Shown in pieces: positions 5,301 through 64,000 of a stretch of 64,000 nucleotides of DNA (position 1 is the first letter of the stretch; each line of letters begins with the position of its first letter). The position numbers and the translations under genes were made by a program. Source of the DNA: Escallonia rubra (taxonomy: Eukaryota; Streptophyta; Magnoliopsida; Escalloniales; Escalloniaceae). The notes beneath the pieces were generated by a model, which saw nothing but the letters and a program-made list of their open reading frames with translations, did no database searches and was not told where the DNA came from. Location: assembly GCA_033065855.1 (NCBI GenBank), contig JAVXUO010000271.1, positions 248,001-312,000 of the forward strand, in the 5' to 3' direction.

Positions 5301-8300
5301 GCCCTGCGGTGTCCAAAATTCAATTTTTTGGAAATTGCGATGTCCGGTGTCCCCGTCGGTGTCCGTGCTACCTAGGTGAACCACTTAGCGTGCGGATCCT
5401 AAAATTTCTTTCTCAGTGACTTAGGCATGTTTTAAACCTCGACTCAATGCTTCACCGCTGATCTAAACCTTAGTTGCAGGAAACTCCTAATAAGGTGACA
5501 TTTCTCTCTCGGAAACTCGCTTTTGCGATCCCAAGTTAGGAGCTCCATGGGATCTCGTCTCAAGCTAATATGGGAACTCGATCCCGTTAGCTGGATAGAG
5601 ATGCATGGAACAAGTGAGAGAATACCTGAAAATCAAGCCCTTTTCAACTCAATTCCTTGTTTCTTTCCTCCTTCAAGTCCTTAAAGCCTCCTTGTTTATT
5701 GTTGTTGGCTATGTAAACTATACTAAACAAATAATAATACTCTTTCTGCATTTATTTATTCAAGCCGCTCCCAACCTCAGATTCTTCTTGGTGCTTACGC
5801 TCCCCCGCCCCCGCCTCCGCTTTGCTAAGATCTAAACATACTGCAAAAAAAGAGCCGCTAACCCCCCAATTTTTATGCATAAGCTCTCGAAACCCTAAAA
5901 TGTACTTTTTTTGTTGCAATGGACAAAAAAAAGGAAGGGTATAACCGTCTTTTCAGGTTTCATTTCCATCAATGCCATTAACCACTGTTGAACTGCCACT
6001 GACCGCCATCCATCACCTCCAACCTTCATTTCTGAATTGACATTTTAGCTTTGTAGGTTTAGAAACTCTTAACCACCATTAATATACCCACATTATCCGC
6101 CACCACCACCACCTCACCCATCACATGGTGTCACTTGACTCATCATACAACTCCTGCAGATACTCGCGCTTTCATGAATGTAGTTCAAAATAACCCCTCT
6201 CAACCAATGCTCGGTCTTCCACATCCTCTCTCCTTTACCGCAACATCCTAATGAACACATACAGCATCACACACCAAAATGCTGAATAACCTCGCATATT
6301 ACTGATCGACATCTTCTTTCTTTCTTTCCTTGTTTTTGTTTTTTAATCAAAATACAGTCAAAGATAAATGGACTGAATAGATTTCATACTCCAGTTGTTT
6401 TCTCCAGATCTGTAACACAATCAATTTTTTAGAGATTTGTAAGTTTAAATATTAATTACAAGGGATAGTAGTGGTGGTAGATTTAGAATTTGGGTTTCAG
6501 AATCAGCAAAGTAGTTGAGGGCAAGGTTGTGGGTTGTCTGAATTTTATTGGTGGAGGTAAAGGGGAATGGGTTGGACGTGGTGGTTGGCGATTTCAGAGG
6601 GTATATGGCTGAAGTTTCGTGTGTCATGTCTGATCATCTTCAAATAAAATCTGAAATTCAGATTTGCGTAATATCGGTACAGTCGTGGTAGAACGATGGA
6701 CTATTTTGTAGAAGATGATTCAGAGCTGAATTAACTGTTCTACCCTTGCCTTTTCCATCGATTGCAACGAAAATAAACCTCGGGATTCCAAGTGCTAACG
6801 TGTAAACGTCAAGGTTTTAGCTTCAACTTTTGGAAAACCACAGGGCGTGGAATGCAATTAAGGCACTAATAAACACACATCGATAGCAGGTATGTCCTCC
6901 TTCACTAGTAAACCACACTCCTCGAGAATCACTCCTTGACGTGCTACTACCTACGGACAGCAAGCGCCATCGGTGTATCTTCTGGGTTGCCGCACGCTGC
7001 TGCTGCCTCGGGTTACCGGTGACATCTTCTTCTTCTACGTCTCTACGATCTCCTCTGTATCCAAAAAGTCAAAAAACCTAGGTCGCGATCTCTCTTCCTG
7101 TTTATTTTCATTTTTTCACCCCTGAGGAAGTCTTTCAGAGTTCGATTTTAACCCCTCAAGTACCCGGTGCGTGTCTCGGCCTTAGTTGCACAAAGCGGGG
7201 ACGGGGGCGGGGGCGGGGGCGGGGGCGGGAGCGGGAACGGGGGCGGGGGAGCGTAAGTACCAAGAAGAATCTGAGGTTGGGAGCGGCTTGAGTAAATAAA
7301 TGCGTAAAGAGTATTATCATTTGTTTAGTATAGTTTACATGGCCAGCAACAACAGACAATGAGGCTTTAAGGACTTGAAGGAAGAGAGAAATAAGGAATT
7401 GAGTTGAAAAGGGCTTGATTTTAAGGTACTCTCTCTCTTGTTCCATGCATCTCTATCCAACTAACGGGATTGAGTTCCCATATTAGCTTGGGACGAGATC
7501 CCATGGAGGTCCTAACTTGGGATCGCAAAAGCGAGTTTCCGAGAGAGAAACGTCACCATATTAGGAGTTTCCTGCAACTAAGGTCTCGGCAGTGTCTCAG
7601 CCACACCGGAAATTCAAAAGATAAATTGTAAATGAAGAATTTTGGACGCACCCAGTGCGCACCTGCAGCAGACTCACACCCAGTGTTGGTACGTCATCCA
7701 AAATTAAGCACTCGGTCTTCATAGGTGAGGAGTCTTGTCCTAGGAAAGAGACACCTGTGCTCTACAGGTGAGGAGTCTTGTCCTAGGAAAGAGATACCAT
7801 AGACAAATATCTAGGGCTATAATCTACAAAAAAAACATCATTTAAACCAAACTAGGAGGAGGTCCGGGAAGGAGGTAAATACAGATGGTCAACAAGTACC
7901 TTAAAAAGAGATCTCAGATGTCTTGGATGAATAATGCACAAGCAGCGAGAGATTGACGAGGATGTTGCCCACAGGGTAAGAGCAAATTTGTTAAACTGGA
8001 GATCTGAACCTGCTGTCTGGGGTGTTGTGGGATGGCAACATTCCTCTCAAGTGCAACGGAAAATTTTATAAGACAGGAGTGCGGCCAACAATGTTATATG
8101 GTTCAGAATGTTGGGCAACTAAGAAATACCACACGCGTAAGACGACACCCGTGAGAAGAGGGTACCCAAAATGCGAATGCTTAGTTAGAAGTGCGGCAAC
8201 ACGTGGAGGGATAGAGGACACTGCAAAAAAGTGGGGGTCATGCCGATTGAGGAAACGACAAGGGAACATCTCTTGAGATGGTTTAATAATATTGAATGTA

Positions 8301-46964: not shown

Positions 46965-47990
46965 TTTTTTTTGTAAGCAAGTTCAATTTATGAGATAAAA
47001 AACAACGTTCAACCAAAGTCTAGTTTCCCTCATCCTCCATTAACAAAAGAAGATGGTGGATGGTGGAACTACGCCCACAAAAAGGTTGAAATCTGCCCAT
47101 TTGGCCAAAATATGGGTCAACCTATTTACAAGCCTATTAACTTTTACAAAGCACCAACAAGTTAGGATTTTCAGCTTCTCCCTTACATCAGCCATAGTTG
47201 CGTAGCATCTCCAATTCGGGTTTGTATCAAAATCATTGAACCAGCTGACCACAGATTGGGCATCTCCCTCAAAGATGATATGGGTAAACATGTATTGTAA
47301 AGCCAACTCAATAGCAAAAAGGGCTGCCAATGCCTCTGCATGTTCAGGGTCCATGGCTATATTTCCAGTGACATGATCCGCAATGATAATCCCCAAATGA
47401 TTCGAAATGGTTACCGCTTGGATCGACTTCATTTCCCTGACCGCCGCATCAAAATTGATCTTGATCCAAAAGGGAGGAGGGCTGCTCCAAGTATGCAATT
47501 CCGTGGTAACACTTTCATCCAGCTTCATTGCCTCACATTGGTATTGATAGTTCTTGAGGACAGACGTTGCCACTTCATTAGCGTTGATCGTAGCTTGTTG
47601 AAACACCTTCCGATTTCTACTCATCCAAATATGCTCCATGGTCGTGCAAGCAAACAAGGTGAATCTGTGGTTTCGATTTGCATTTTGCATATCTGGGACT
47701 TGAGGTGCAAGAATATCCTCCAACCACTTAATCATCAATAAACCAGAGTCATCAGCGATTGGGTCAGGAGGATGGGTGTTTTCTGGAGAGATTGCCCACA
47801 AAGCTCGAGCTAGAGGGCAGTAGTAAAACAAGTGAATTAAAGATTATTGCTCCAAGTTACAAAGGAGACATACCGTATCAATATCCGAATTAAAAACTTG
47901 GATTTTGCTTCCGATTGGGAGAATGTTCCAAGCAATGCGCCATATTAGAATTTTTGCTCCAACCTAATTAAAGCAATTACTACCAATATA
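46965..47990 (-). pseudogene. 5'-truncated LINE fragment: zf-RVT end and RNase H
   Basis: The minus strand has a 263-codon open frame (47831-47040) ending the ORF2 of an L1-type LINE. It has FYYCPLARALWAI (zf-RVT), IWMSRNRKVFQ, then RNase H with KINFDAAV, DPEHAEALAALFAIELAL and EGDAQSVVSWFND. The catalytic D, E and D positions are present. A T-run on plus at 46965-46972 is the A-tail. The zinc-domain sequence extends upstream to about 47985, where the copy stops. Target duplications were not found. It is a different copy from the LINE at 16.8-31.1 kb. Confidence 0.8.
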
Positions 47991-48180
47991 TTCATTTTCA
48001 GTGATGGATTATACTCGCTAAATGCTCGATATTTCTAATTAGTACGTTCATGCAAGATAAAATCAATGACAGTTATCGCTTATTATACTACTAAATATCA
48101 CGCGCTAAATGTTACAAATAATAAGCCGTTAAATATGATCGCAAATTCCATTGTTAACGGTGCATCACCAAGGCCAGACA

Positions 48181-48254
48181 GTTCTAGAGCTTTCGAGGGC
48201 ATGACAGAATCTCCAGAATCTCTACTGGAACGTTCTCCCCAGCCCCTTATAAAA
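48181..48254 (+). promoter_or_regulatory. Heat-shock promoter: heat-shock elements and TATA box
   Basis: A three-unit heat-shock element lies at 48181-48195 (gTTCtaGAGctTTCg, one mismatch in the middle unit). A perfect two-unit GAAcgTTC core lies at 48228-48235, with additional GAA units at 48207 and 48216. TATAAAA follows at 48248-48254, about 235 bases before the ATG. Clustered heat-shock elements immediately upstream of a TATA box are the standard arrangement of plant sHSP promoters bound by HSF factors. This promoter now precedes the sHSP-NOC1 chimera. Confidence 0.75.
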
Positions 48255-48343
48255 TACCCCAACTTTCCTCTCCTCTTTACCAGCATGCTACACACCAATC
48301 AACAAGATCGCAAATTCCATTGTTACCCACAAATTTCTCAGAG

Positions 48344-48461
48344 GTAAGAGTGCTTTGTTTTTTTGTCAATTACAGATTCTCTGCACTTCGAAGATTTTGG
48401 TTTGGTGGCTTGTTGGGGTTGCTGACGAAAGTAATTATACATGGTACTTGATTTGGTGTAG
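48344..48461 (+). other. Candidate leader intron of the sHSP-NOC1 gene
   Basis: CAGAG|GTAAGAG at 48341-48350 is a strong donor and GGTGTAG at 48455-48461 a usable acceptor. The 118-bp intron would lie wholly in the 5' leader. The ATG at 48486 does not depend on it. Confidence 0.4.
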
Positions 48462-48485
48462 ACTTTCCTTTGAAGAGAGACGAGT

Positions 48486-51400
48486 ATGGCGGACGTGCTG
48501 AGCTACGTTCTGAATTTGCCCGGAAGCACCATTGACAAGTGTTCTCCGAGGACTCACGACACCCACGATGAAAGCAGAAAGGGTGTGAGCAGCATCCCCG
48601 TCGACATTCTTGATAACCCCAAGGAGTATGTCTTCTTCATGGATGTCCCCGGCTTGTCCAAGTCTGACATTCAGGTAAGGGTTTATTTCAAGCAATTATA
48701 TGGCTTTCTTTCCTTCATATGGAGACCGATAGCCCATGTAAAAAATTGTGTATCATAGGGTTTAGAGGCTTGAAATTGTTAGGGCAAAAGTACCAACAAA
48801 GGGTAGCCATAGTATCGCTTATGCTGGATTTCATTGAAGAATCAAGAATTCAAACATGTACACATTACAGTCACCAGCATTATCAGTCTGTTACTATTTG
48901 AGTTCAACTTAATGTGAATACGTTTGACCTACACGAAGAGTGAGAGCGGACGAAATTCCCAAAACAAGGCAGTAAAATGAATGCTTATGACCGCTATTCC
49001 TGGGCCCTGTACACGCTAGGAACTGCTTTTTGGGGCTACAAAATGGGGGTTTTGTGAAAGTATTCAACCAGACAATGAGGGAAGATGCCTACAATTTGTC
49101 ATTTATCAATGTGGGATTGATATCTCTCAATGTGTTTTGGATTGTTTTTTTTTTTGTTTTTTGTATCTTCGGTGCCCATGTGTGAACATTGCCGAGTATA
49201 ATGTAGGTCACAGTGGAGGAAGAGAACACGCTGCTGATCAAAAGCAACGGGAAGAGGAAGCGGGAGGATGACTCCAAAGGGTTTAACAAGTTCAAGAACC
49301 TCCCAAAGCTTCCTCTGATCAAGGCAAGTTCGGTGGGGGTGTGGTACGAGGATGCGGCCCAACTGGAAGAGAAAGTGATAGGGAAGAAGAAGGTTGAGTA
49401 CAAGAATGTGGTGGAGTGGAAGAATTTGGTGGCGAAAAAGAAGGAGTTGGGCGAGAGGCTGCTCGCACAGTACACGCAGGATTACGAGGCGTCGCGGGGA
49501 CATAGTGGCGACATTAAAATGCTGGTTGCCACGCAGAGGTCAGGGACCGCCGCGGATAAGGTGTCTGCATTTTCCGTCATGATTGGGGAGAGTCCAATTG
49601 CGAACGTGAAATCGCTCGATGCACTAATAGGTAGTTTTTGCTTGTTAGATTTCATCTGCCATGTCTTGCATTTTGTTTTTACATATCGTTATGAAGTCTT
49701 TTGTTACTGAATTTTGCTTAGGAAGTGTATTTTAGTATATAGTTGGTATTAATTTTCCTACCAAAGCTGGTGGATCTGAAAACTTGGTGACATGGAACTT
49801 CTTACCAAAAGCTAGTGAAGAAATGGAGCTTACTATGTGACTGAGAACGTAACTTTGAAGTATTTACCACTCAATGGATATATATCAAGGTGACAAAGAC
49901 GTGTCTCTAAGCTTTTTAGTTTCTTCTGTCTGGGGTATAACAAGTGCAAGTTATACTTGAAATTGAGTTGTGGGCAGTAGCGGAGGCAGCGGGGGGCACA
50001 GGGGGGCACGTGCCCACCTGCTGCCTTCTTCTCTCCCGTTTAGGGTACACCAGAAATAGTTCCCTTGCTGCCGACATGGATGAAACCGCCAAATCTGAAA
50101 TGAAGGTGGAAGAAGGAAGAAGAGAAGGCACAATAGAAGTGGAGATGGTGGTCGATGGTGATACCGACATATACCACCAATCATTACCGTGAAGCGGCCT
50201 TGGTTCATCAGAATGGAAGAAAATGGGCTGCCTTGCCTTCTGTTCTGTGTGATTATGAAAAGAGGAATTCCTTTCTTGTCTAATCCAGAAAGGCGAAGGG
50301 AGGGAGGGAGGGAGAGGGGGTGATGGAAAACAAGGGGCGGCTGATGGTTTTGACTTTTGAGGTGGAAGCTCAGGTTCTTTTAGGATGGATTTTGATTCAT
50401 GCATTAATTTTATTAACGGTCAAGATTTTTTGAAAGAGCTCCATTTTTTAATTATGGCTCTAATATATGATGTTACGGTAAATGGACACAAAAAAGAAAA
50501 ATTTCACTGAAAAAATGTTCATGTAATGTTTGCTAAAACGGCTAAAAAAATACGACATTTTGATAAATTACACTATAATTAAGGGCTCACATAAAAGACA
50601 CATAAAAAGAACGACACTCAATTAAATGTCCAAGACGGCCTTTATACTATAGTTTGTTGTAGTGAACGCAACTCCAATTTTTTTCTCTTTAGACGTCTCA
50701 ATTTTTGTTCTCTTATTCTTAATATAACTGTCTTGTTAGGTGTTGGGTTTTGTATATTGTAAATGTAAATAACTTATTGCGGAGTATAAGATTGTCCCTT
50801 TATTTCTTTGTTCTTTCATACCTACAGACGTATCATGTGTTCGACAAAATGTAGGATACAAAAATTAGGAAGTCTATTTTGATCTAGTAAAGTGCAGTTA
50901 TTTCTAATTTTAAATTAAATTGGCACACACAAATCTTTGGGTTAACTTGCCCTTGGATTTACCAGGAGTCGAAGCGAATGTATGAATTTGTTACGTAGAA
51001 AATTGTGGATGATTCACTCATGCCCTTTTGACCTATGATGGTTTGAGTTATCTGTTTCTTGGGTTAATACATTGTTACAATATTTAAGCTTAGAATTTTT
51101 TCCTCCTTCGTTAATTAAGTGCCCACCCCGTGTATAGTTTCTGGCTCCGCCACTGGTTGTGGGGTTTGTGGAAATAATAGCTAAGTACAAACTGAGCAGA
51201 GTGCACACATTTTCAATGTTCAGAACTGACCTACTTTCAGGTGATAACAGAGATTAATCACAGCCTCGCTTTCCCGAGAAAAGGAAATAATTTCCATTTG
51301 ATGTTTTTTACAACCTTATTTGAATCCACGATTTGGCTATTGATGGAATCAAAATGCAGGAATGGTGACATCAAAAGTTGGAAAGCGCCATGCACTAACA

Positions 51401-54400
51401 GGATTTGAAGCACTAAAAGAAATGTTTATTTCGAGGTTGGCTTCCCACTTGTTTGTTCTTAATATGTTCCTTTTTTTCTTTTCGTTTTCTTTTTTAATTA
51501 TAATTGATGTTTTGTTTCTGTATGTTGTTATCTTGTGCTATTACATAGATACAGTATTATCTACAGCTTAGAATCCCGCTTTTCTTGTAATTTGACATCT
51601 CAGTTAGCTTGCAATATTTGACTGTTGCACGATCCTTTACCAGTCTATTACCCGATCGCAAGCTCAAGAGCCTCTTTCAGCAGCCTGTGAATCATCTTCC
51701 CGAGTCCAAAGATGGTTACACTCTTCTACTATTTTGGCATTGGGAGGAGTGTCTAAAGCAGAGGTACATTAACATTCCCTCTTTCCGCCTTACTTGCATA
51801 ACCTTCTTTTGATCCAAAAATCATGTAAGGGCTGAACAAGCTGATAAAGTTGAGAAGGTTTGTACCAATTCTCTGCTGCATTTCCTGAGTAAACTGAACC
51901 TTGCTATTGGCGAAGTGTGTTTTCCCTCCGCATATGTGATATTAAGTTTTTCTTTTTCTTGTATATCGTATATGTAACTGTTGCTATTTGTGTTATACGG
52001 AGATGTATTTGTAGATGAATGGTTGGTTTGCCATGGGTTCGATGAGAAACAGTCTCTGCACAAATGCCATAAGAAGGCTGCATCATTAAACCATCTCCTG
52101 ATGTCACAGTGGCGCAAACGTTGTGCGTTGGCCATCTTTATGTAAAGTATTAGTGGCTATCTAGTCAAGTGCAATCGAATTTGCAAATCCATTGTAGTTT
52201 GGCCATCTTAGTAATTGTCAATTTCATCTTGGGACTTAGCTAACTTAGACGATTAGAATTACTTTATGAGAACGGTAAAGACAGTCAAAGCTGTCTGCTC
52301 ATAGAATAAGAAAGAATTTGAACTAGAGAGGCCCTGCTGAAATGTGACTAACTTGCGTTGGCACGAGTCCTGGAGAAATTTACGCGTTATGCAAAAAGCA
52401 TAACGATATTGATATTGCAGAATATTAAGCTGCCCTCACCCTTCTAGTTGTGGTACAAGATTTTTTACAGTCTTTCGTAATAATGTTGAGAGAAGATACA
52501 AGACATCTAAATTAGAGTTTGCGGCAGAAGAAATCAAATGTCTTCTGTCAATGCTAGAGTGGACTGTGTTTGGATTATGACTTACATGGATATAATTGAT
52601 TATTGCAGGTATGAACATTTTATTTTTGCACTTGAGGAAGCATCAAGAGATATGTTAGCTGTACTTAAAGATAAGGCATTAAAGGTTGGCTTTATTCTTT
52701 ATGTAGTGTGCTTAAATGGATTTGTATCTCTATGAAGCTTTTTATTATATTATGGGCCTATACGTATTAATCACCTGTGCTTAGATGACTAGCCGCCTCC
52801 TTCATAGAGCTCTTGCCATAATTTATCTTTTGATAGAATTGTAGTCTTGTTTATATGAGCTTAGGTACATGTCTTTGCCATTTTGGTGTTGATCTTATTT
52901 CAATGTCGAGAGTAAGGGAGGGAAGAAAGATGTTTATGGGATGGAGGGACCGAGGATGCTTCTCTTGGTGCTGGAGGTAGGATTGAAGAGTGTTCTATTT
53001 GTCTCTCGAGTGGGATTGGGAATTGGCGATGCACCAATGTTGCTCCGTTGTACGCTGACCTCGAGTTGATAGCTTGATCAAGCTGATCGCCAACTCTGGG
53101 CTCGCCAGTGCAGAAAAGGTTCAGAAGTATCTGGGAGTACTCCATTATGACAATACCAATAATGTTGATTATCAAAGAAATCAAAAAATTGTTTTTGCCC
53201 AAGCAGCTAGAGAAAGATCCTGGTGTTCATTGTGTCACAGAGTTCTCATAGCTGATTCAACAAAAGAGAGACCAGCTCATTATGTGATTAGAGGACGTCT
53301 AAGGTTCACTTGAGGTAGGGGTGAGAGAGAGAGTGGAAGTGTTGAGATAGTTAGTGCCATGTCGTCAGTTTAAAGCATTAAGAACCTAGTATTATTATAA
53401 CTGCAAAGTTTAAAAACTTTACTGCCGGTTGAGCCATTACCCAGAAGTATATGGAATGTAAATTTCTAACTCAACTCATGTAAATTTGCACCTATGACAA
53501 CTTGAGTTTGTGAGGCACTAAGTTTCTGTCAGAGAGCCGAGTTAAGCTTGCTATATGGTTTTCATTTTAGTTGGTATCATGTTTCAAGGTCATTTAGATA
53601 CTCGAGTTCTTTATAACTTGAGTAATGTGGCTGCATGGCTGTAATCAAACCATATATTCTTGTTTTATTTCTCTAAGCCATGGAGTACTTAGAATGCGTG
53701 TCGCGCGCTCTGTACAAATTTGATACTTCTTTTGTGTTGGGATGTGTTCGACCATTTTGGCGAACGTCCTGTCAGAGTTGTGTATATGAAACTTTTTAAT
53801 TTAGTGAATACCAAAGTATGGGCTTGTGTTGATTACAAAACCACATTACGACAACCATCCTTTTTGACATGTGATGGTATTCAGGTAGCTGCATCTCCTG
53901 AGTGGCTCCCATTAATCTGATCTTTTTGCCCCTAGTTCTTTCTTTTACTTTTTTTTTAAAAAAAAAAATTGTCTGGGGCTTATGGTATGTTGGCATGCAG
54001 ACCATATATGTGCTGCTGAAGAGTAAATCCGAGCAAGAGCGCCGATTGCTATCTGCACTAGTAAACAAAGTATGTTAACATTGATCTTCTGCTTGTAGCC
54101 ATCTTTTGAATTTATGGAGCTGTGAAGCTTTTTGGATAAATCCCCTATTTTGCTTCCATACAGCTAGGAGATCCCTTGAACAAGGCTGCCTCTAATGCTG
54201 ATTATCATTTGTCAAAGCTTTTGTCTGACCACCCAAATATGAAGGTAAGTAGCTGGTGTAATGAATTAATTTATGCTACTTCTTTCTGTATTAGCCTAAA
54301 GGAAAAATATCGAGTAGTTGTTGCAGAGTATTCTTTCTACTTGCATATAACTTGTATGATGATATGAACATGAACCATAATGGCAGATAGCCAGACATAG

Positions 54401-57400
54401 CCACCCCCTTCTCATTCATCAAAATAAAAAGAATAAAAGAGGGACAGATGAAACTATTGTTAGTTCCAAAAACATACCTGCGGGGTCCAAAAGAACCTAC
54501 TTTTTTGCAAAATTTCTGAAAACAGGGTAAAGTTCAAAGCTTTTTTAGATGTTGACATCAAAATCAGTAACATGATACTAAGGAGCACGAACATACACAA
54601 GTATAAGAAATTTTGAGTGTCACAATAACAGCCACTTGCCTCTCTCCTAACTCTTGCGGAATTAGACATATCTAGTATATAATGCTAGAGATTGAGGATT
54701 AGAAATTCTGAATGTCTTATTTGGGGCTTGAGTATATTGCCTATTGCTAATGATTGAAAATGCAAATTTGGAAGTAGTGTGAGCTAAGCAACCATTGGCA
54801 TTGAACAGCTAATCCGCCACCCCTTGACACGATATGAATTACCTTTTTTTAGGCTCTTAGCAAATGCAGTGTCAACGCATAATGCTATTAAAGGAGAAGG
54901 ATTACCACTCTATATACGAAAATGAAAGCCTTAATTCTATTTGGTTAACAAGAGCATAGAAAATTGCTAAAATATCTATAACTGTGGAATTCTTACATCA
55001 CGACCATTACAGTCGAATTATTGTGCAGCTTAAAATGATTACAAATGTCTCGTGTTTTCGGCTTTGCTCGTCTGACCAGTTTCAGGCATGTCATTGCTAG
55101 CTTTTTTCATGTTGGATCAGTCCACACAACATGGATGCAAGATGACGATGACTTCAACGTTCGCATAACTTTATAACAGTTGCTTCCCCGCGAACAATGT
55201 ACCTTGAGCACCCTATCCCATCTAGTTGACACTTGCCACCTGTGGAGGCCGTTATTCCTGGAGCATATGCACCTATGCCTAAAATTAACAAATGTCACCC
55301 ACTTGTACACATTATTTATTCACAAAATGGTCTTGGTCTTTGGTGAAAGCAGCCTATCTTCTCTGGACAAGTTTGCTTAAGGTAGCAACTTCTTTAGGGA
55401 TAAGTTGATGGACATTAGAATTTTTTTATTCTTGGTGGAGATCAGAGTGAGTAGCTACAGGCTAGTACTAAGGTATCTGACCAGTTTTGTTTAAGTACTC
55501 GCTGCATCACAGTTTGAGGCGAACTTTTATTGTTAGTGGCTGTTACTCGGTTCTTCCTCATTACTGCCATGGTATCTACTTACATATCATGGAAAGTTAT
55601 TAGTAGTTCTACTTACATATCATGGACTGATAAAAGGTTTTCTTTTTTTCTCTTTCCCTCCTTTTTTGACTCTCGGGCTATTCATAGTTTTATTTGAAAT
55701 TATGCTTTTCATTGCAATCATGCGGTGGTACTTATATGGCCTTCTTTATCATTGTAGGCTGTGGTGATTGACGAGGTGGATAATTTTATTTTTCGGCCGC
55801 ATTTGGGATTACGATCCAAATACCATGCTGTACGTTCATAAAGATAACCTCTTCTGAAACTTTTGGTTGCTACCTTTTTTGTAATTTTAACTTGTAATGT
55901 CCTATATCTGCGCTTGAAGTTATGTCTTATAACCATGGAAATGTTCTGCATATTTGTTTAAAGACGCACAAACTTTAAAAAATGGATGGCAAGTAGAAGA
56001 TCAAGCAAAATACCATAACAAGGAAATTATCCGAGAGAAAGAACAACTAAGAAGGTTGTCCTCAGTAGTCAAACTTCGGTTCGACCAAAAGAGAGCTGCA
56101 GCTCTTTTACCTGGTGTATTTATGGTCTAGATCTTATGGTTTTTTTTTCCATCCTTCCTTTCTCCTTGTCTTTTTGGTATCTCTACAAGTATTCTATAGG
56201 TTTCCGTGGGGCTTGGGGGTGGGGGTGGGTTGGGGTGGGGTGGTACTCAGAAGAACCATAGAAAATTGGATGAGCATTAACAAAAGATCATATGATTAAA
56301 TTGCATATATATAGAGATTGTATAACTTAAACGGAATCCCACACAAAGCCACAGTGACAAGTACGTCTGTCCAGCTTTCTTAACTACTAATGTTTTAAAT
56401 AACTTCTGATCATATCCATGTCTAATAAGACCTTGAGTTTCCACCTGAACTTCCCTACGTGTTTAATTTGTCCTTTTTAACTTTAGTGACATGCAAACCG
56501 CACTGATCTGATGGCATTCTGTGCAGGTTAACTTCTTAAGCCAAATCCGTCTATCTCACAGAGGTGATGGGCCTAAGGTGGCCAAAAGATTGGTAGATGT
56601 GTATTTTGCATTGTTTAAGGTACTTTATAAGATCCCTGTTCTGAAGATGAATTGATATCCCAGCCGCACTTTGTTAGAACAGGATTGTTGAATACCTTTA
56701 GCAACTATGCCTAGACCTTATCCTTATCTATCTTTTAGGTGCTTATCTCTGAGGCTGGCGAATCCAAGATGGACAAAAGCAGCACAAACGAACATCATAA
56801 AGACCCCAGTTCTTCTAAAGACAAGGACACGAAAGTTTCTTCAAAATCTCATGTTGAAATGGATTCACGATTGCTGACGGCCCTTCTAACAGTGAGTATT
56901 AGTCACTTCATGTTTATAACAGAATATTTACTCAAAACATCAACTTAACCAAACATATCGTCTTGTTTGTGGGCTATGCTCGCTCTTCTATATGCCAGCA
57001 TGGACTTTTCTCAACTCTTTCCAAAGTATAAGATTTGATTTGCAGTTTACTAGATTTTCTTGTCCATTGGATAACTGAAAATTATAAAAGGAGTTGCCGC
57101 TCAACTCTGTTGTGTGTCACATGGTATATTGGGGATTAATAATCTGCACGGTACGGGTGCTGACTTTTTATTTCCATGTACTCTGGGTGCTTTTCTAGTG
57201 GCTATTTATATTTTCAACTTGCCTAGCCCACATCTCTCCTTGCAGCATGATGAGGGGAAATACAGGGTCGTGTGTCCCTGGTCTCTTCGGAAATATATGA
57301 TACGGATAAAAGGGAATTGTTTGTGGATGCCAGCCAACGTCTTCCCCATTTGGGTTTTGATTTAGTTCTTTCGAGTTATTGAGAGCCAACCAAGATTAGT

Positions 57401-60400
57401 TCTTGGTTAGCTTATAACCCAGCTAAAAGCACCTGTCATATCAATTTGGCAGCTTGCCGATGCTTTTAACCAGATTAGTTCTGGGTTAGCTTGTTACCAA
57501 ACCAAATGGACTGTTTGAAACACTTTGGCAGCTTCAATGCTTTTGTTGATTTTTCAGAGCGCTTATCACACTCAACTATCCTCATATTCTTTTTGTAAGC
57601 TTTTTCCATGTTAAAAGAGTATTGGACCTCTGGTTTCTTTTCCCCATGTATGCTTTAATAGTATAATGTTTTGCATTACATTGCTCGGAACAGTCTTCAT
57701 ACCATTGAAGTGTTTAGATTTCTCGGTTATTGTAACGATTATCAGAAAGATTACATAAAATATTTGTAACTTTGTTTACCTTCTACAGGGAGTCAATAGA
57801 GCATTTCCTTTCGTTTCAAGCAATGAAGCTGATGACATTATAGAGGTTCAGACACCAATGCTATTTCAGCTGGTATGTTCAAGGCTGATTAGTGCTGATT
57901 ATGTATAGGTTTCTGAGTCAAGTAATTATTAGTCACATTAGACAACTTAAGCCAGTAAAAATCTGAGAGCATAGACACTTGTCGTCTAATGTTGAGGCCC
58001 ATACTCCTGTTGGCAATTGGCTTTCAACAAAATGTTTAGACAGTTTGAAATGTATTTGACTTTGTTTCTCAAAATTGTTATTTGATTTTGCAGGTTCACT
58101 CGAAGAACTTTAACGTAGGAGTTCAAGCATTAATGCTTCTTGATAAGATCTCATCCAAAAATCAGATTGTCAGTGATCGGTTTTATCGCGCCTTATACTC
58201 TAAGCTCTTGCTTCCAGCTGCCATGAATTCTTCTAAGGCAAGTGAATTAGTCTGCTTTTCCTTTCCCTAGTGATGAGAGATCTGGATACGTCGTTTTCCA
58301 ATTTTTACCAAAGCAGGTGTCCATGTAGTATATGTATCTGTGTGTGTTTGTGTGAATAATCTCTACTAGTTTATTGTTTAGCATCCAACAAATCTGAGCT
58401 GCCTCCTATCCCGGAATCTCAATTCTTATTAATGGACGTGTCTTGCTATCGCAGTTTAAGGTTCTAGGGTCACTAGAGTGCCAACTTAGATAACAGTTTA
58501 TCATAATTTCTATAAACCTTTTTATACTAGTAGACTTATCACATATGACTGGTAATCAAGTGTTTGATAGGTTTTAGCTGAAGTTTCCATTCTGCCTACC
58601 ATCTTCTAGATGGTGTTAGTCTGTATGAATAAAAATATATGGTGTCAGTCTCACTATTGCAGCATCTCTCCCATGCATTGAAAGTGTGCTTTGTCAAACA
58701 GCTTGTCTGTATGGTTTGTGAGATGGCAGTTAGGGAAAGCTGCTTCTCTCCTTGAGTTGAACAAATCTCCAACCCGATGTTTTTTGTTACTTATATCAAT
58801 TCTGGTCTTTATGTTTGTTCGTGCGTGGATGTGTTGTCTTTTTCACGCGGTTTCTAATATGGGCATCTGTATTAGATTATTCTAATAAAGTTCAGATATT
58901 ATGAATACTTAATTCAATGGACTGCTTTCAGACTCGAAGGCAGAAGATCCTTCAACTCGCTTCTTTTAACAGCTTCATCTGCTTAGTCATTTCCATATTC
59001 AGTTGTTGAAAATGTAGGTTGTTCTTGATTAAAACTTCATTAGAGACATATAATCATCTACAGCTGTAAGCACTTACGCCTGTTTTTGTACTCGAATGCG
59101 CAATCAGGTCAAATTTTCTTTCTTTCTTTCATTAGAGGCATATAATCATCTACAGCCGTAAGCACTTACGCCTGTTTTTGTACTTGAATGCGCAATCAGG
59201 ACAAATTTTTTCTTCTGATTTTTTTCTTTCTAAACTGTTTCCTACATGGACTATTTTCAGGAAGAAATGTTTATTGGGCTACTTCTGCGAGCTATGAAAA
59301 GTGATATTAATTTGAAGCGAGTATCTGCTTTTGCAAAACGTTTGTTGCAGGTTAGTGCTACAATGTAATGATTGCCTTGATTGTCTCTTCCTGTGTTCCT
59401 ATAACCCGTCGAATCTGCTGGATTGTGCCGGACTCTGTAACTAGTATTTTCTTCTGCTTCTCTTTTTATTTTTATTTTAAATAGTAATTAACTAACAAAA
59501 CTGCCAAATGGGGCAGACTTACGTACACAAGGCATATTTAAGGAAAAAGGCTAATCAGGCTTCACTGGAATGCTTAGGCCCCGTTTGGTTACCATTTTCA
59601 TGTTCCGTATTAATTTTCTGTTGTCATTTTATGTGTTTTCATTCTCAAAATGGGAACAAAACGTCGTCCAAAAAGTAGTATCCGTTTGCTTTCTTCACCT
59701 AATTTTTACCAAATTTCCATTTAAAAAATGGAGCTGCATTCATTTAGCTTTTTCCACACATATTCTGCTACGTGTTTTCCCAAAATGTCCCTACTGTCCA
59801 CGTTGCGGTTTACCAGAATACCCTTAAAATCACTTCATATATTTGACTTCTGACACAAAGGGTCCCACAGGTCAGATTTGTCGTCAGATTGAGCCCAACT
59901 TACCATATTATCTCAATCTTTGTTTTTGATCTGGTACTAAATCTGGGCCGTTCAATCCCACCACCGCCATGATTACTCATCACCCCCACAAAATGTGTTT
60001 GTGGATGGTGCAGTGAGGTTTCTGGTGGCCGTGTGGGTGAGAACGAGGGGTTGTTGATGATATGATGGTGTGGTGGACCTGGTGGTGATTGTTAACGGGT
60101 AATATTTAAGTGAGGCGACAAAAATGTTGGTTTGGTGGTGGTTGTAGGAGGGGATGAGTGAAACCGACGAGATTGGTGGTGGTTGCTGGGGTTGTTGAAG
60201 GCGACTCCGGTGGTTTTGGGTGGCTGATCATGGTTTTTGATGGAGGAAGGTAGTCGTGGTGTTGGAGAATGGCTTAATGGTGAGTGGTGCTACAGGGATA
60301 GTCGTTATTCAGCATGGTTATGATGGTTTTGTGGTGGCCATGTGGTCATGATGGGCGAGTGGTGACGAGGCTAGAGGTCGTGAGTGGTGGCCATGGTGGC

Positions 60401-62999
60401 TATGGCGATGCGTTGGTTCTTCACGGTGGCTATGCCACTATGGTGACTATGGAGGAGGCTGATGATGTGCCATGGTGGCTAGGAGCAATATTTTCTTTTT
60501 GGCTTTTCTCTGACACAGGTTCGCCAGAAAAACATCCTTTTGTACTGGATGGGTCATTATTTCCAAAAGGAAAACGGAAATATGTGTAACGACAAAAAAG
60601 AAGGGCATCTCTTTAGTGATATTGCAAAATATGGTAAGAGAAAATGTAAACAGCGGGCCCTTATATTCCTCCGCCCAACATCATAGGTAGTCGGCATGTC
60701 ACCGGGGAAGAGAGACCAGAGCTAATGAAATTGGGAGGGAGAGTTATCTTGATCTTCGCATGTTCATAGTTAGCCAAAATTCAGACTTTTAAATCCTATT
60801 TTTTGTATGTTTTTTTTTGAATTTGAGATTTTTTTATGAAGTAAATAATATTTATTGAAATAAGAGATACTTATTGGAAACCTGGAGCTTATAAGTTTAG
60901 GTTAATAATTGCTAGTCATCTCTTGAATTTATTCTCTGGGATTTAATTTTCTAACCTAGACCACATCATACATCCAGCTAGTCTATCCTTTTTCATTCAA
61001 GTTGGAAGCTGTACTAAATAGAACTTTAATGCATGATTTTACATTTCTTGAACTTTACATATAGATCTCAGATCCTATACTTGACCAAGTATTGATTGCT
61101 GAACCCATAAAACAGGTTGCACTTCAGCAGCCACCCCAGTATGCCTGCGGATGTCTTTTCCTCCTCTCTGAAGTCCTTAAAGCAAGACCACCTCTGTGGT
61201 AAGGCTAAACCACTAAGTCGCTGTTGACTACTTTTTCCGGAGACTTCATTAAATTCTTTCCCGTTCAAGAAAAATCATGCTTCTTCTATCCTGTAGGAAC
61301 CTGGTGCTTCAAAACGAGTCAGCCGATGATGAACTTGAGCATTTTGAAGATGTTGTAGAAGACACTGATAATCAAACAAGCATCGCATCAGAAAGAATGA
61401 ATAATGGTGGTGAAGCTCATATCGAAGACGATGCTGATACTGATAATAGTGACTCACTGGATGAAGGAGGCTCTCCAATTTTTGATTCTGAAGATGAGGC
61501 TTCAGACGAAGGAAATGATTTTACCTTGAGAGGTGGTTCTAGTGACCCTCAGGAATCCAGAACTTTAGCTAGTGACGCTAATCAAAATGAGCCCCAGCCT
61601 AAAAAATCTAATGTCAAGTCTGCTTTGCCCGGAGGATATGATCCACGTCACAGGGAACCTTCTTACTGGTACTTCCACTCTTCAGTCTGTTGAGCTTCAA
61701 CTGGCTGTTTCATTTGATGCTAAAAGCAATTTACCTTTTGTCACATTCTTACACCTGATGCGACTACTATCACAACTTAATAAGTTGCTCTGACTTAGGA
61801 CTTGACACATATGATTTCTGTTTTTTAGTTCCGCTTTTGTTTTTTTCTGAACTTCTATGTTCGAACATGAGAAGTCGATTTTCTCTTACTATGTATATTT
61901 TGTGAAACAATAGCAATGCAGATCGTGTAAGCTGGTGGGAGTTGATGGTATTGGCTTCTCATACGCACCCATCAGTTGCTACCATGGCCAGAACTCTTCT
62001 TTCCGGGGCCAACATCGTGTACAACGGAAACCCACTGAACGACCTTTCACTTACTGCTTTTTTGGACAAGTTTATGGAGAAGAAGCCAAAGCAAAGCACA
62101 TGGCATGGTGGTTCCCAGATAGAACCTGCCAAAAAGGTTAGTTTTTTGTGCCCTACGTCCTATTTTGCCTTGGAATTCCTACTTCAGCATAATCACAGGA
62201 TCCCAAAACCACTTTATGTTTAACATAACAGTCTTTGAGGCATCTGGAGTAATCTTCAAGATTCTATGCAACCGTCTCATTGATTGGGGATTTGTGAACG
62301 GGTCTGCAGATTCGTGTCTTAACTTTTTTTTTTTTCTTTTTTGTGTTCCTCTAGCTTGACATGAACAACCAGTTGATTGGGGCAGAGATTATCTCGTTGG
62401 CAGAAATGGATGTACCACCTGAAGATCTTGTCTTCCACAAGTTCTACACAAACAAAATGAGCTCCTTAAAGAAGAAGAAAAAGAAGAAAATTGCCGAAGA
62501 TGAGGCTGCTGAAGAGTTATTTGCAGGGGCTGGTGATGATGAAAGTGACAATGAAGAGATTGACGACATCCTGGACACTGTAAATCCTTCATTAGAGGCA
62601 GATGGTGACTATGACTATGACGATTTGGATCAGATTGCCAATGAAGACGACGATGACTTGGTTGGCAATGTAAGCGATGAAGAGATGGACTTCCCCTTGG
62701 GCATTCCAGAAGGGGATGATGCTCCTGACAACAATTCCAGCGACAATGATGACGAGGACGTTAATGACGAGGACGTTAATATCGGGGTTGCGGAGGATGG
62801 GAGCGACAAAGAAGAAGACGAGTTTGAGCAAAAGAAACGGAAAAGGAAACAAAAAACTGGTGGGCACTCTGGGGCATCCCCTTTTGCAAGTCTTGAAGAT
62901 TATGAGCATCTGCTGGACGACGAGAGCTCAGGTGAGGGAGAGAAATCTACCAAAGAGAAAAAGCCCAAGTCTAAAAAGAAGAGGAAGATGTCTAGATGA
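48486..62999 (+). CDS. SWA2: Chimeric sHSP-NOC1/SWA2 gene (CCAAT-binding factor, nucleolar)
   Basis: Inferred exons: 48486-48674, 49207-49630, 51360-51435, 51644-51763, 52609-52684, 54001-54069, 54164-54244, 55758-55829, 56527-56619, 56739-56891, 57789-57872, 58094-58237, 59261-59350, 61116-61198, 61297-61668, 61914-62136, 62355-62999. They give 2994 nt, about 997 residues, with all phases matching. Residues 1-85 are a class II sHSP start: MADVLSYVLNLPG, PVDILDNPKEYVFFMDVPG, then the first strands of the alpha-crystallin domain to NGKRKRED. From FNKFKNLPKLPLIKASSVG onward the protein is NOC1/Mak21/CEBPZ: FWHWEECLKQR, the CBF domain (~446-720, with QQPPQYACGCLFLLSEVLK, YDPRHREPSYCNADR, HPSVATMARTLLSG), IGAEIISLAEMDV, and an acidic/basic tail. 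The Arabidopsis homologue SLOW WALKER2 is nucleolar and needed for 60S subunit biogenesis. The native N-terminus is missing and exon 2 has no early in-frame ATG of NOC1 origin, so the sHSP ATG is the only start giving a near-complete product. One intron is GC-AG. The exon 3/4 junction gives Ser where the family has Arg. Confidence 0.8.
48876..49270 (+). repeat. Inverted repeat, left arm (sHSP intron and start of exon 2)
   Basis: Reverse complement of 63616-64000, with about five substitutions and a poly-T length difference over ~390 bp. The homology ends at GAGGATG (49264-49270), after which this copy continues as NOC1 sequence and the other as sHSP. The arm must extend further left, but its partner runs off the window. 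Confidence 0.95.
49975..51155. mobile_element. hAT-type non-autonomous element in NOC1 intron
   Basis: An exact 8-bp duplication GTTGTGGG flanks the element (49967-49974 and 51156-51163). Inverted ends are CAGTAGCGGAGGCAG and, in reverse, CAGTGGCGGAGCCAG. At 1181 bp it has no transposase; the 162-codon minus frame near its left end is Pro/Ser-rich and unrecognised. It is the same end family as the element at 43825-44287. Confidence 0.9.
52685..54000 (+). other. NOC1 intron with unassigned coding-like fragment
   Basis: Around 52975-53313 the plus strand shows EECSICLSSGIGNW, then stops, then SGLASAEKVQKYLGVLHYD and RERSWCSLCHRV in shifting frames. This looks like an old inserted gene piece, but I cannot name it. 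The intron is bounded by AAG|GTTGGC and CATGCAG|ACC. Confidence 0.3.
54245..55757 (+). other. NOC1 intron, unassigned
   Basis: 1.5-kb intron between AAG|GTAAGT and TTGTAG|GCT. No element boundaries or coding content recognised. Confidence 0.5.
58238..59260 (+). other. GC-AG intron in the NOC1 part
   Basis: The exon ends ...TCTTCTAAG and the intron begins GCAAGT, the optimal sequence for the rare GC donor class. The acceptor is ATTTTCAG|GAAGAA. Using GC keeps the frame and joins NSSK to EEMFIGLLLRAMK as the family requires. The nearest GT (four bases on) shifts the frame. Confidence 0.85.
59041..59214. repeat. Tandem 92-bp repeat (two copies) in a NOC1 intron
   Basis: The block TAGAGACATATAATCATCTA with the following ~60 bases occurs at 59041 and again at 59133, with only a few substitutions. 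Confidence 0.9.
59351..61115 (+). other. NOC1 intron with probable old transposon
   Basis: GGCCCCGTTTGGTTACC at 59577, a word common at ends of plant DNA transposons, starts a segment with a GGTGG-rich core (59990-60480). I did not find a matching right end or a duplication, so no element is called with confidence. Confidence 0.35.
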
Positions 63000-63108
63000 T
63001 TACATTTTCCCCTTTTTTCCTTCCATTTTGGGCTTGTTTGTAGCCATTTCATGGCATTAATTTTGATACTTAAATTGTCACTTGTAAGTGGCTTTATTCG
63101 AAACAGTT

Positions 63109-63192
63109 TTGGCCATTGGACGAAGTTGCATGTTACAAAGATGCTGAGGGTTGGCCATTGGACGAAGTTGCATGTTACAAAGACGCTGAGAA
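63109..63192. repeat. Tandem 42-bp repeat in the NOC1 3' flank
   Basis: TTGGCCATTGGACGAAGTTG followed by CATGTTACAAAGA-GCTGAG occurs at 63109 and 63151. It probably lies in the 3' untranslated region, between the convergent NOC1 and sHSP stops, which are only ~420 bp apart. Confidence 0.85.
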
Positions 63193-63419: not shown

Positions 63420-64000
63420 TCATGAGATGGCAACTTCAACAGTTCTGGTCTTTGCCTGGGCTGGGGGTAACTTCTCGACAACAACAGTCAAGACCCCGTT
63501 CTCGCACTTGGCAGTAACGGCGGACATGTTGCAATTCTCAGGCAACCGGAACTTCCTCATCAACTTCTGAGGTGCTCTCCCTCCAGCCTGATGTACTTGT
63601 AGCCTTCCTCCTCACCATCCTCCTGCTTCCTCTTCCCGTTGCTTTTGATCAGCAGCGTGTTCTCTTCCTCCACTGTGACCTACATTATACTTGGCAATGT
63701 TCACACATGGGCACCGAAGATACAAAAAAAACAATCCAAAACACATTGAGAGATATCAATCCCACATTGATAAATGACAAATTGTAGGCATCTTCCCTCA
63801 TTGTCTGGTTGAATACTTTCACAAAACCCCCATTTTGTAGCCCCAAAAAGCAGTTCCTAGCGTGTACAGGGCCCAGGAATAGCGGTCATAAGCATTCATT
63901 TTACTGTCTTGTTTTGGGAATTTCGTCCGCTCTCACTCTTCGTGTAGGTCAAACATATTCACATTAAGTTGAACTCAAATAGTAACAGACTGATAATGCT
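63420..64000 (-). pseudogene. Class II sHSP, second copy, exon 2 with 1-base frameshift (partial)
   Basis: On the minus strand exon 2 runs 63679-63420 after an AATGTAG acceptor; the intron continues past the window end and exon 1 lies outside. It codes VTVEEENTLLIKSNGKRKQED, then GYKYIRLE. One A is missing in what should be the LERRAP codons (63581-63578 region), so the frame hits a TGA. In the shifted frame the rest of the alpha-crystallin domain is intact: [30 protein letters not shown], and a C-terminal VEVAIS with TGA at 63422-63420. This is a cytosolic class II sHSP, an ATP-independent holdase chaperone. Either it is a very young pseudogene or the missing base is a sequence error. It is convergent with the chimera. 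Confidence 0.8.
63616..64000 (-). repeat. Inverted repeat, right arm
   Basis: Partner of 48876-49270. The match begins at 63616 and continues to the last base of the window, so the true length is unknown. Confidence 0.95.

Follow-up and report, generated by a model that had tools for sequence, protein, structure and literature searches.

A young hybrid gene of Escallonia rubra joins the 5′ half of a class III small heat-shock protein gene in frame to NOC1/SLOW WALKER 2

Chimeric genes that arise by duplication at the DNA level or by template switching can capture the promoter and exons of a neighbouring gene. Here we describe a 64,000-nucleotide stretch of Escallonia rubra (contig C2872, positions 248001-312000; the window), in which the 5′ half of a class III small heat-shock protein (sHSP) gene runs in frame into NOC1, a gene of the CEBPZ family also named Mak21 or SLOW WALKER 2 (SWA2). 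The locus is likely a derived, dispersed duplicate of a NOC1-class III sHSP pair that captured an inverted sHSP 5′ half by way of the four bases GATG, and a heat-responsive NOC1 is predicted from its sequence. No fusion of NOC1 with a class III sHSP is known to us, and a narrow search of the literature on fusions between chaperones and ribosome biogenesis proteins matched no paper. As to the two partners, Noc1-Noc2 is reported to clamp root helix 2 of the pre-rRNA (PMC10191850), and tomato Hsp16.1-CIII is described as a nuclear, heat-induced protein (PMC4814718). The E. rubra assembly (566 Mb, 3222 contigs) is described as built from Oxford Nanopore Technologies (ONT) R10.4.1 reads with Canu, Illumina polishing and purging of haplotigs (PMC10759652).

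The gene model was re-derived and gave 17 exons on the plus strand between 48486 and 62999 (window numbering), comprising 2994 nt and 997 amino acids without an internal stop and closing with a stop codon at 62997-62999. A reading of the sequence alone had proposed a chimera that stays in frame and contains every later NOC1 exon, and this is borne out, with the join at 49267-49270 (Table 1). Fifteen of the 16 introns have GT-AG borders, and the remaining one, with its donor at 58238, is GC-AG; the same GC donor is found in the NOC1 copy on contig C1176, introduced below. Residues 1-83 belong to the sHSP, D84 is common to both partners and the remainder is NOC1. The first residues past the join, DDSKGFNKFKNLPKLPLIKASSVGVWYEDAAQ, are identical to the E. 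herrerae NOC1 model RJ639_025401 (P0002), to which the hybrid aligns from DDSKGF on; the 82-residue NOC1 leader in P0002 numbering is missing. Homologues were taken from the best 120 of 1003 matches for NOC1 (7999 candidates scored), of 438 for the sHSP and of 243 in a further search for fusions, altogether 330 proteins. The leader motif SDxxxFAxxIGL is carried by 102 of the 120 NOC1 relatives and is lacking in the hybrid. With the intact E. herrerae N-terminus as tblastn query, no native NOC1 N-terminus was found in the window, significant matches beginning only at DDSKGF (49267), in agreement with the earlier claim that it is absent upstream.

Behind the join the NOC1 part is well recognisable: the Pfam CBF domain lies at residues 489-734 (2e-43; 148.5 bits against a curated cut-off of 22.1), and yeast Mak21 (PDB 8e5t) can be aligned from hybrid residue 136 and Mak21 residue 240 on, the region so aligned being present in the hybrid. 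Of the sHSP, positions 1-47 of the 102 of Pfam HSP20 are found at residues 40-87 (4e-6); the domain is thus incomplete, more than half of the alpha-crystallin domain being lost. A KRKR cluster, present in 117 of the 120 sHSP matches, is kept. A 26-base string across the junction has a single occurrence in the 566-Mb genome, which is at the C2872 locus. Since a random join is in frame one time in three, the in-frame state alone is no evidence of function.

The heat-shock part had been taken for a cytosolic class II protein; it belongs to class III instead, an assignment made without a tree from best matches, intron count and motif. Its nearest listed protein is P0121 (97.6 % over 84 residues), and among the best 120 of 438 matches more than 30 of those naming a class are class III as against two of class II (P0160, P0182). 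One intron is given for tomato Hsp16.1-CIII and none for two CII genes (Table 1 of PMC4814718), and AMAATP is described as a CII motif (PMC5595972). In E. rubra this motif occurs in two of three translated class II-type genes of contig C2116, the third having AMATTP. The sHSP part of the hybrid possesses one intron and neither form of the motif, and the class II label was rejected on these grounds.

The probable parent pair is located on contig C1176. All 34 genomic matches of P0002 fall on C1176 or C2872, and its leader (query 25-128) matches C1176 only, so that the search for another NOC1 called for by the sequence-only reading yielded one further locus. There NOC1 starts at 780231 and stands tail to tail with an intact class III sHSP gene (P0121, 795554-794578). 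Of the flanking open frames, the upstream one looks, by its motifs, like a SAC-type phosphatase and the downstream one like a SAUR-type protein. Class III sHSP sequence exists in the genome on C1176 (intact) and C2872 only; the next-best matches are at most 54 % identical, except for a partial one of 65 % over 71 residues on C2218. A Pfam profile search of the genome found CBF domains also on C933 and C2782, which are other family members because they were missed by the P0002 search.

C1176:780484-794345 and window positions 49267-63148 are 99.0 % identical over 13,903 columns; 137 columns, with in-frame indels among them, distinguish the two NOC1 copies. In the sHSP region the right and left copies on C2872 are 96.5 and 96.6 % identical to C1176, with weaker pieces of 85 and 91 % just beyond. 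Between the compared flanks (40 kb of C1176, 84 kb of C2872) blastn gave no other match of at least 100 bp. Because of the 99.0 % identity and the unrelated compared flanks, dispersed duplication is the best explanation of the window copy. A haplotig or allele of C1176 was rejected on the same compared flanks, and a retrogene was rejected as all NOC1 introns are kept and align to C1176; their retention implies copying at the DNA level. Loss of the genome's only NOC1 was likewise rejected, the C1176 locus bearing the native N-terminus. The earlier reading had named a separate intact NOC1, with the fused copy silent, as grounds for refuting its claim: a second NOC1 with its own N-terminus does exist, but its exon 1 is disrupted in the assembly.

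How the join was made is suggested by two inverted sHSP arms on either side of NOC1. The left arm (47951-49270) is 98.3 % identical to 64925-63616 on the minus strand over 1320 aligned columns (numbers beyond 64000 carry the window numbering on past its end), and 96.6 % to the C1176 gene in the best piece of 1119 columns. Over 1300 ungapped columns both arms have 43 differences from C1176 in common, and 12 substitutions separate one arm from the other. As their differences from C1176 are common, the left arm arose at the C2872 locus, as a younger inverted copy. Eleven of the substitutions are private to the right arm and one to the left (two-sided binomial P 0.006), seven of the eleven being C>T or G>A. 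In addition, the frame of exon 2 is shifted by one base in the right gene, exon 2 further carries R>Q and exon 1 M>L; by its sequence the right gene is a fresh, decaying pseudogene. The asymmetry of the arms is not read as selection on the hybrid because it lies mostly in noncoding DNA. A simple inversion as source of the join was rejected, since the sHSP intron is present on both arms and inversion alone would not remove it. The GATG microhomology together with a 1.32-kb inverted copy is what a template switch of the type of microhomology-mediated break-induced replication (MMBIR) or fork stalling and template switching (FoSTeS) leaves behind; however, four bases can also be given by end joining or chance. 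A reverse-transcriptase-like frame (RVT_3; a fragment like a long interspersed nuclear element) at 47043-47967 ends about where the sHSP copy begins, possibly at the second break of the duplication.

Table 1 Features of the hybrid locus in window coordinates
Feature	Position	Strand	Basis or remark
Left arm: class III sHSP 5′ half (upstream region, 5′ untranslated region (UTR), exon 1, intron, first exon 2 codons), inverted duplicate	47951..49270	+	
Perfect heat-shock element core, GAACGTTC	48228..48235	+	also upstream of C1176 sHSP
TATA box, TATAAAA	48248..48254	+	sequence
Putative 5′ UTR intron, GTAAGA...TGTAG	48344..48461	+	read by eye
Hybrid exon 1, sHSP codons 1-63	48486..48674	+	gene model; 48486-48683 95% identical to P0121 residues 1-66
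sHSP intron, retained	48675..49206	+	gene model; same intron in right copy and C1176 gene
Exon 2, whole	49207..49630	+	gene model
Exon 2 start, still sHSP, VTVEEENTLLIKSNGKRKRED including KRKR	49207..49270	+	gene model, arm comparison
Junction, 4-nt GATG	49267..49270	+	common to sHSP exon 2 (C1176:794772) and NOC1 exon 1 (C1176:780484)
NOC1 part of exon 2	49267..49630	+	gene model, P0002 and C1176 comparison
NOC1 exons 3-17 to stop, span	51360..62999	+	gene model; homologues; yeast Mak21 alignment
NOC1 exons 3-8	51360-51435, 51644-51763, 52609-52684, 54001-54069, 54164-54244, 55758-55829	+	
NOC1 exons 9-13	56527-56619, 56739-56891, 57789-57872, 58094-58237, 59261-59350	+	
NOC1 exons 14-17	61116-61198, 61297-61668, 61914-62136, 62355-62999	+	
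Right class III sHSP, tail to tail with NOC1	63423..64000 and past window end	-	exon 2 63423-63679; intron from 63680
Right sHSP exon 1	64390-64202	-	sequence comparison

The origin and anatomy of the hybrid are well supported; its expression and function we infer from sequence. In the proposed course of events the NOC1-sHSP pair would have been copied to a second place in the genome, where a microhomology-guided template switch, or an equivalent repair of a break, would have appended the inverted sHSP 5′ half. NOC1 would thereby have gained the promoter region and 5′ UTR of an sHSP gene as well as its start codon, an intron and 83 codons. If transcribed, the product would be a heat-responsive NOC1 with complete Mak21/CBF core and without the conserved leader; under heat it could supplement the normal protein, or compete with it, at the step of 60S assembly in which Noc1-Noc2 acts. 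The KRKR cluster could aid its entry into the nucleus. Chaperone action is unlikely because the sHSP fragment is less than half an alpha-crystallin domain. For tomato Hsp16.1-CIII it is reported that protein synthesis is lost at higher temperature by failed splicing (PMC4814718); by analogy, the hybrid with its sHSP intron may be subject to the same limit. In the upstream region, at about 48283-48290 and close to where the transcript is predicted to start, an ATG arises from a 4-nt insertion that the left and right copies share and C1176 lacks.

Several observations weigh against the explanation proposed here. One heat-shock element core was found in 536 bp, where 0.35 would be expected from the 42 cores of the whole window, so that it is little above chance and weak alone, and the tomato class III promoter is described as lacking a canonical element, though the gene is heat-induced (PMC4814718). 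A barley class III protein is given as cytoplasmic (PMC3942355), as opposed to nuclear in tomato; a nuclear location is likely, but the literature on it is not uniform. Compared with C1176, 9 of 2590 coding and 56 of 10966 noncoding positions differ (Fisher P 0.34, damaged cluster of C1176 exon 1 excluded), with six nonsynonymous and three synonymous changes; no selection is detectable, and the substitution counts neither make constraint on the hybrid evident nor rule it out. Divergence from C1176 is about 0.5 % in the NOC1 part and about 2-4 %, depending on the method, in the sHSP part, and this inequality means that the order of events is blurred by gene conversion or polishing. No transcript, annotated protein or read across the junction was seen in the search for the fusion. 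Between 53267 and 58266, eight of ten 500-nt bins have no substitution relative to C1176 (the others four and one), and such near-identical stretches suggest recent gene conversion or polishing. None of the 330 listed proteins contains both parts, and no other species with the fusion was found among the matches listed. P0055 and P0296 align at most 29 residues into the sHSP part through their own NOC1 leaders (P0296 judged by eye, P0055 by position).

A considerable chance, somewhat short of even, is given to a hybrid that is structurally real and either not expressed or without stable protein, and that will decay like its neighbour; this overlaps with the heat-responsive duplicate proposed above, sharing its origin and denying function only. 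The frameshifted right sHSP of the same locus with its eleven private substitutions against one, the lack of detectable constraint, the retroelement-like frames of the window and the absence of a listed protein spanning the junction all agree with silence. Decay is contradicted by 17 exons without stop, frameshift or lost splice site, by intact promoter elements and by two coding indels relative to C1176 that are both in frame (9 and 15 nt), whereas two of ten noncoding events are multiples of three. A mis-joined C2872, with the error in either the inverted repeat or the NOC1 copy, is very improbable: near-identical inverted arms in an ONT assembly do invite such errors and consensus problems are visible in C1176 exon 1, but left arm, right arm and C1176 each have an sHSP sequence of their own, the NOC1 copies are separated by their 137 columns including in-frame indels, the genes share just four bases at the join, and C2872 and C1176 are both long (654 and 921 kb). 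Furthermore, E. herrerae too has two NOC1 models on different contigs, one of them without the native N-terminus.

That model, RJ639_024601 (P0001), is a NOC1 copy of 96 % identity and differs from the hybrid in a first exon annotated from a repeat, the sHSP part lying outside the model. It enters NOC1 at SSVGVWYE, encoded from 49327, and its first 51 residues match C2872:326281-326433 best (94 %) and three other places with 92, 88 and 82 %. Transcription from elsewhere, with an upstream exon spliced past the sHSP part as annotated there, is nevertheless quite unlikely in E. rubra: the first exon is a dispersed repeat with ten matches in the genome, its match on C2872 is on the opposite strand and 29 kb away from where NOC1 starts, and a predicted gene model is weak evidence. 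An attempt to establish P0001 as the same locus as the hybrid failed, its first exon being a dispersed repeat.

The hybrid might also have taken over as the working NOC1 of the plant if the C1176 gene were truly broken. NOC1 is essential in Arabidopsis, no third locus was found with P0002 in the genome, and C1176 exon 1 is interrupted by premature stops and shifted in frame at 780280-780335 and 780571-780698, while the hybrid frame is intact. Yet the damage is confined to two dense clusters with clean coding sequence between and after them, which resembles an ONT/Canu consensus error and probably is one. In C1176:780565-780705, 18 of 141 columns differ as against less than 1 % elsewhere, a chance of 6e-16 at the background rate and of about 1e-11 after allowing for position. 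Moreover, P0002 of E. herrerae has an intact N-terminus, though its C-terminus is off frame. A takeover is thus rated as quite unlikely; were the damage real, the hybrid would be the only intact NOC1 frame. From about residue 950 on, the P0002 model follows a different frame, perhaps owing to an indel error, its assembly being described without Illumina polishing.

The neighbourhood of the two genes was counted by hand in 28 species that are in both homologue lists with apparently one assembly. NOC1 and a class III sHSP lie on a contig or chromosome of the same size in 20 of them, nine with consecutive locus tags (Nyssa, Craigia, Buddleja, Pistacia integerrima, Lithocarpus, Paulownia, Pterospermum, Bertholletia and Canavalia), while in Liquidambar the size agrees and the tags are not consecutive. 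Sizes differ in eight (Rubroshorea, Gossypium raimondii, G. hirsutum, Hevea, Diplodiscus, Cinchona, Telopea and Hibiscus sabdariffa). Prunus armeniaca, Lupinus albus, Xanthoceras, Carya and Davidia were left out, the assembly being ambiguous or the contig missing, and a further list adds Gastrolobium for the neighbourhood and Lonicera against it. Equal size is weak evidence for whole chromosomes and consecutive tags are firmer; the orientation was seen in E. rubra only. From the shared contigs in 20 of 28 species and the nine consecutive pairs it follows that the NOC1-class III sHSP pair is old in eudicots. Apart from these genes, the window contains a 355-nt inverted repeat (5467-5821 and 7230-7584), 93 % complementary and 1.4 kb apart.

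Because parent pair, degenerating sibling and join are readable in one genome, the path from gene pair through duplication to the capture of a promoter can be traced, and the locus points to a deep NOC1-class III sHSP neighbourhood in eudicots. If the hybrid is expressed, 60S assembly would be coupled directly to heat stress and the role of the NOC1 leader would become testable. An unlikely, more far-reaching version would have E. rubra NOC1 placed under heat-shock control by gene birth, the hybrid being driven by the captured class III sHSP promoter, bearing the KRKR cluster and supplying NOC1 in times of heat, or all of it if the C1176 damage is real, on a segment able to flip. Inverted sHSP arms on both sides would let the NOC1 segment turn over and remake the same hybrid either way; a faint hint of such flipping is given by the E. 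herrerae model, since in E. rubra its repeat exon is found on the other strand.

Set against the described systems, the locus is a clear young hybrid gene and not a new kind of system. With NOC1/Mak21/SLOW WALKER 2 proteins it shares the CBF/Mak21 domain and an alignment from residue 84-85 on, but the native 82-residue leader is replaced by an sHSP fragment. With class III plant sHSPs of the tomato Hsp16.1-CIII type it has the N-terminal half, the single intron, KRKR and the promoter region in common, but retains HSP20 positions 1-47 of 102 only. Like other chimeric genes it combines kept introns, microhomology at the join and a new 5′ regulatory region; it differs in that the captured part is an inverted copy of a tail-to-tail neighbour and that its partners form an old eudicot neighbourhood.

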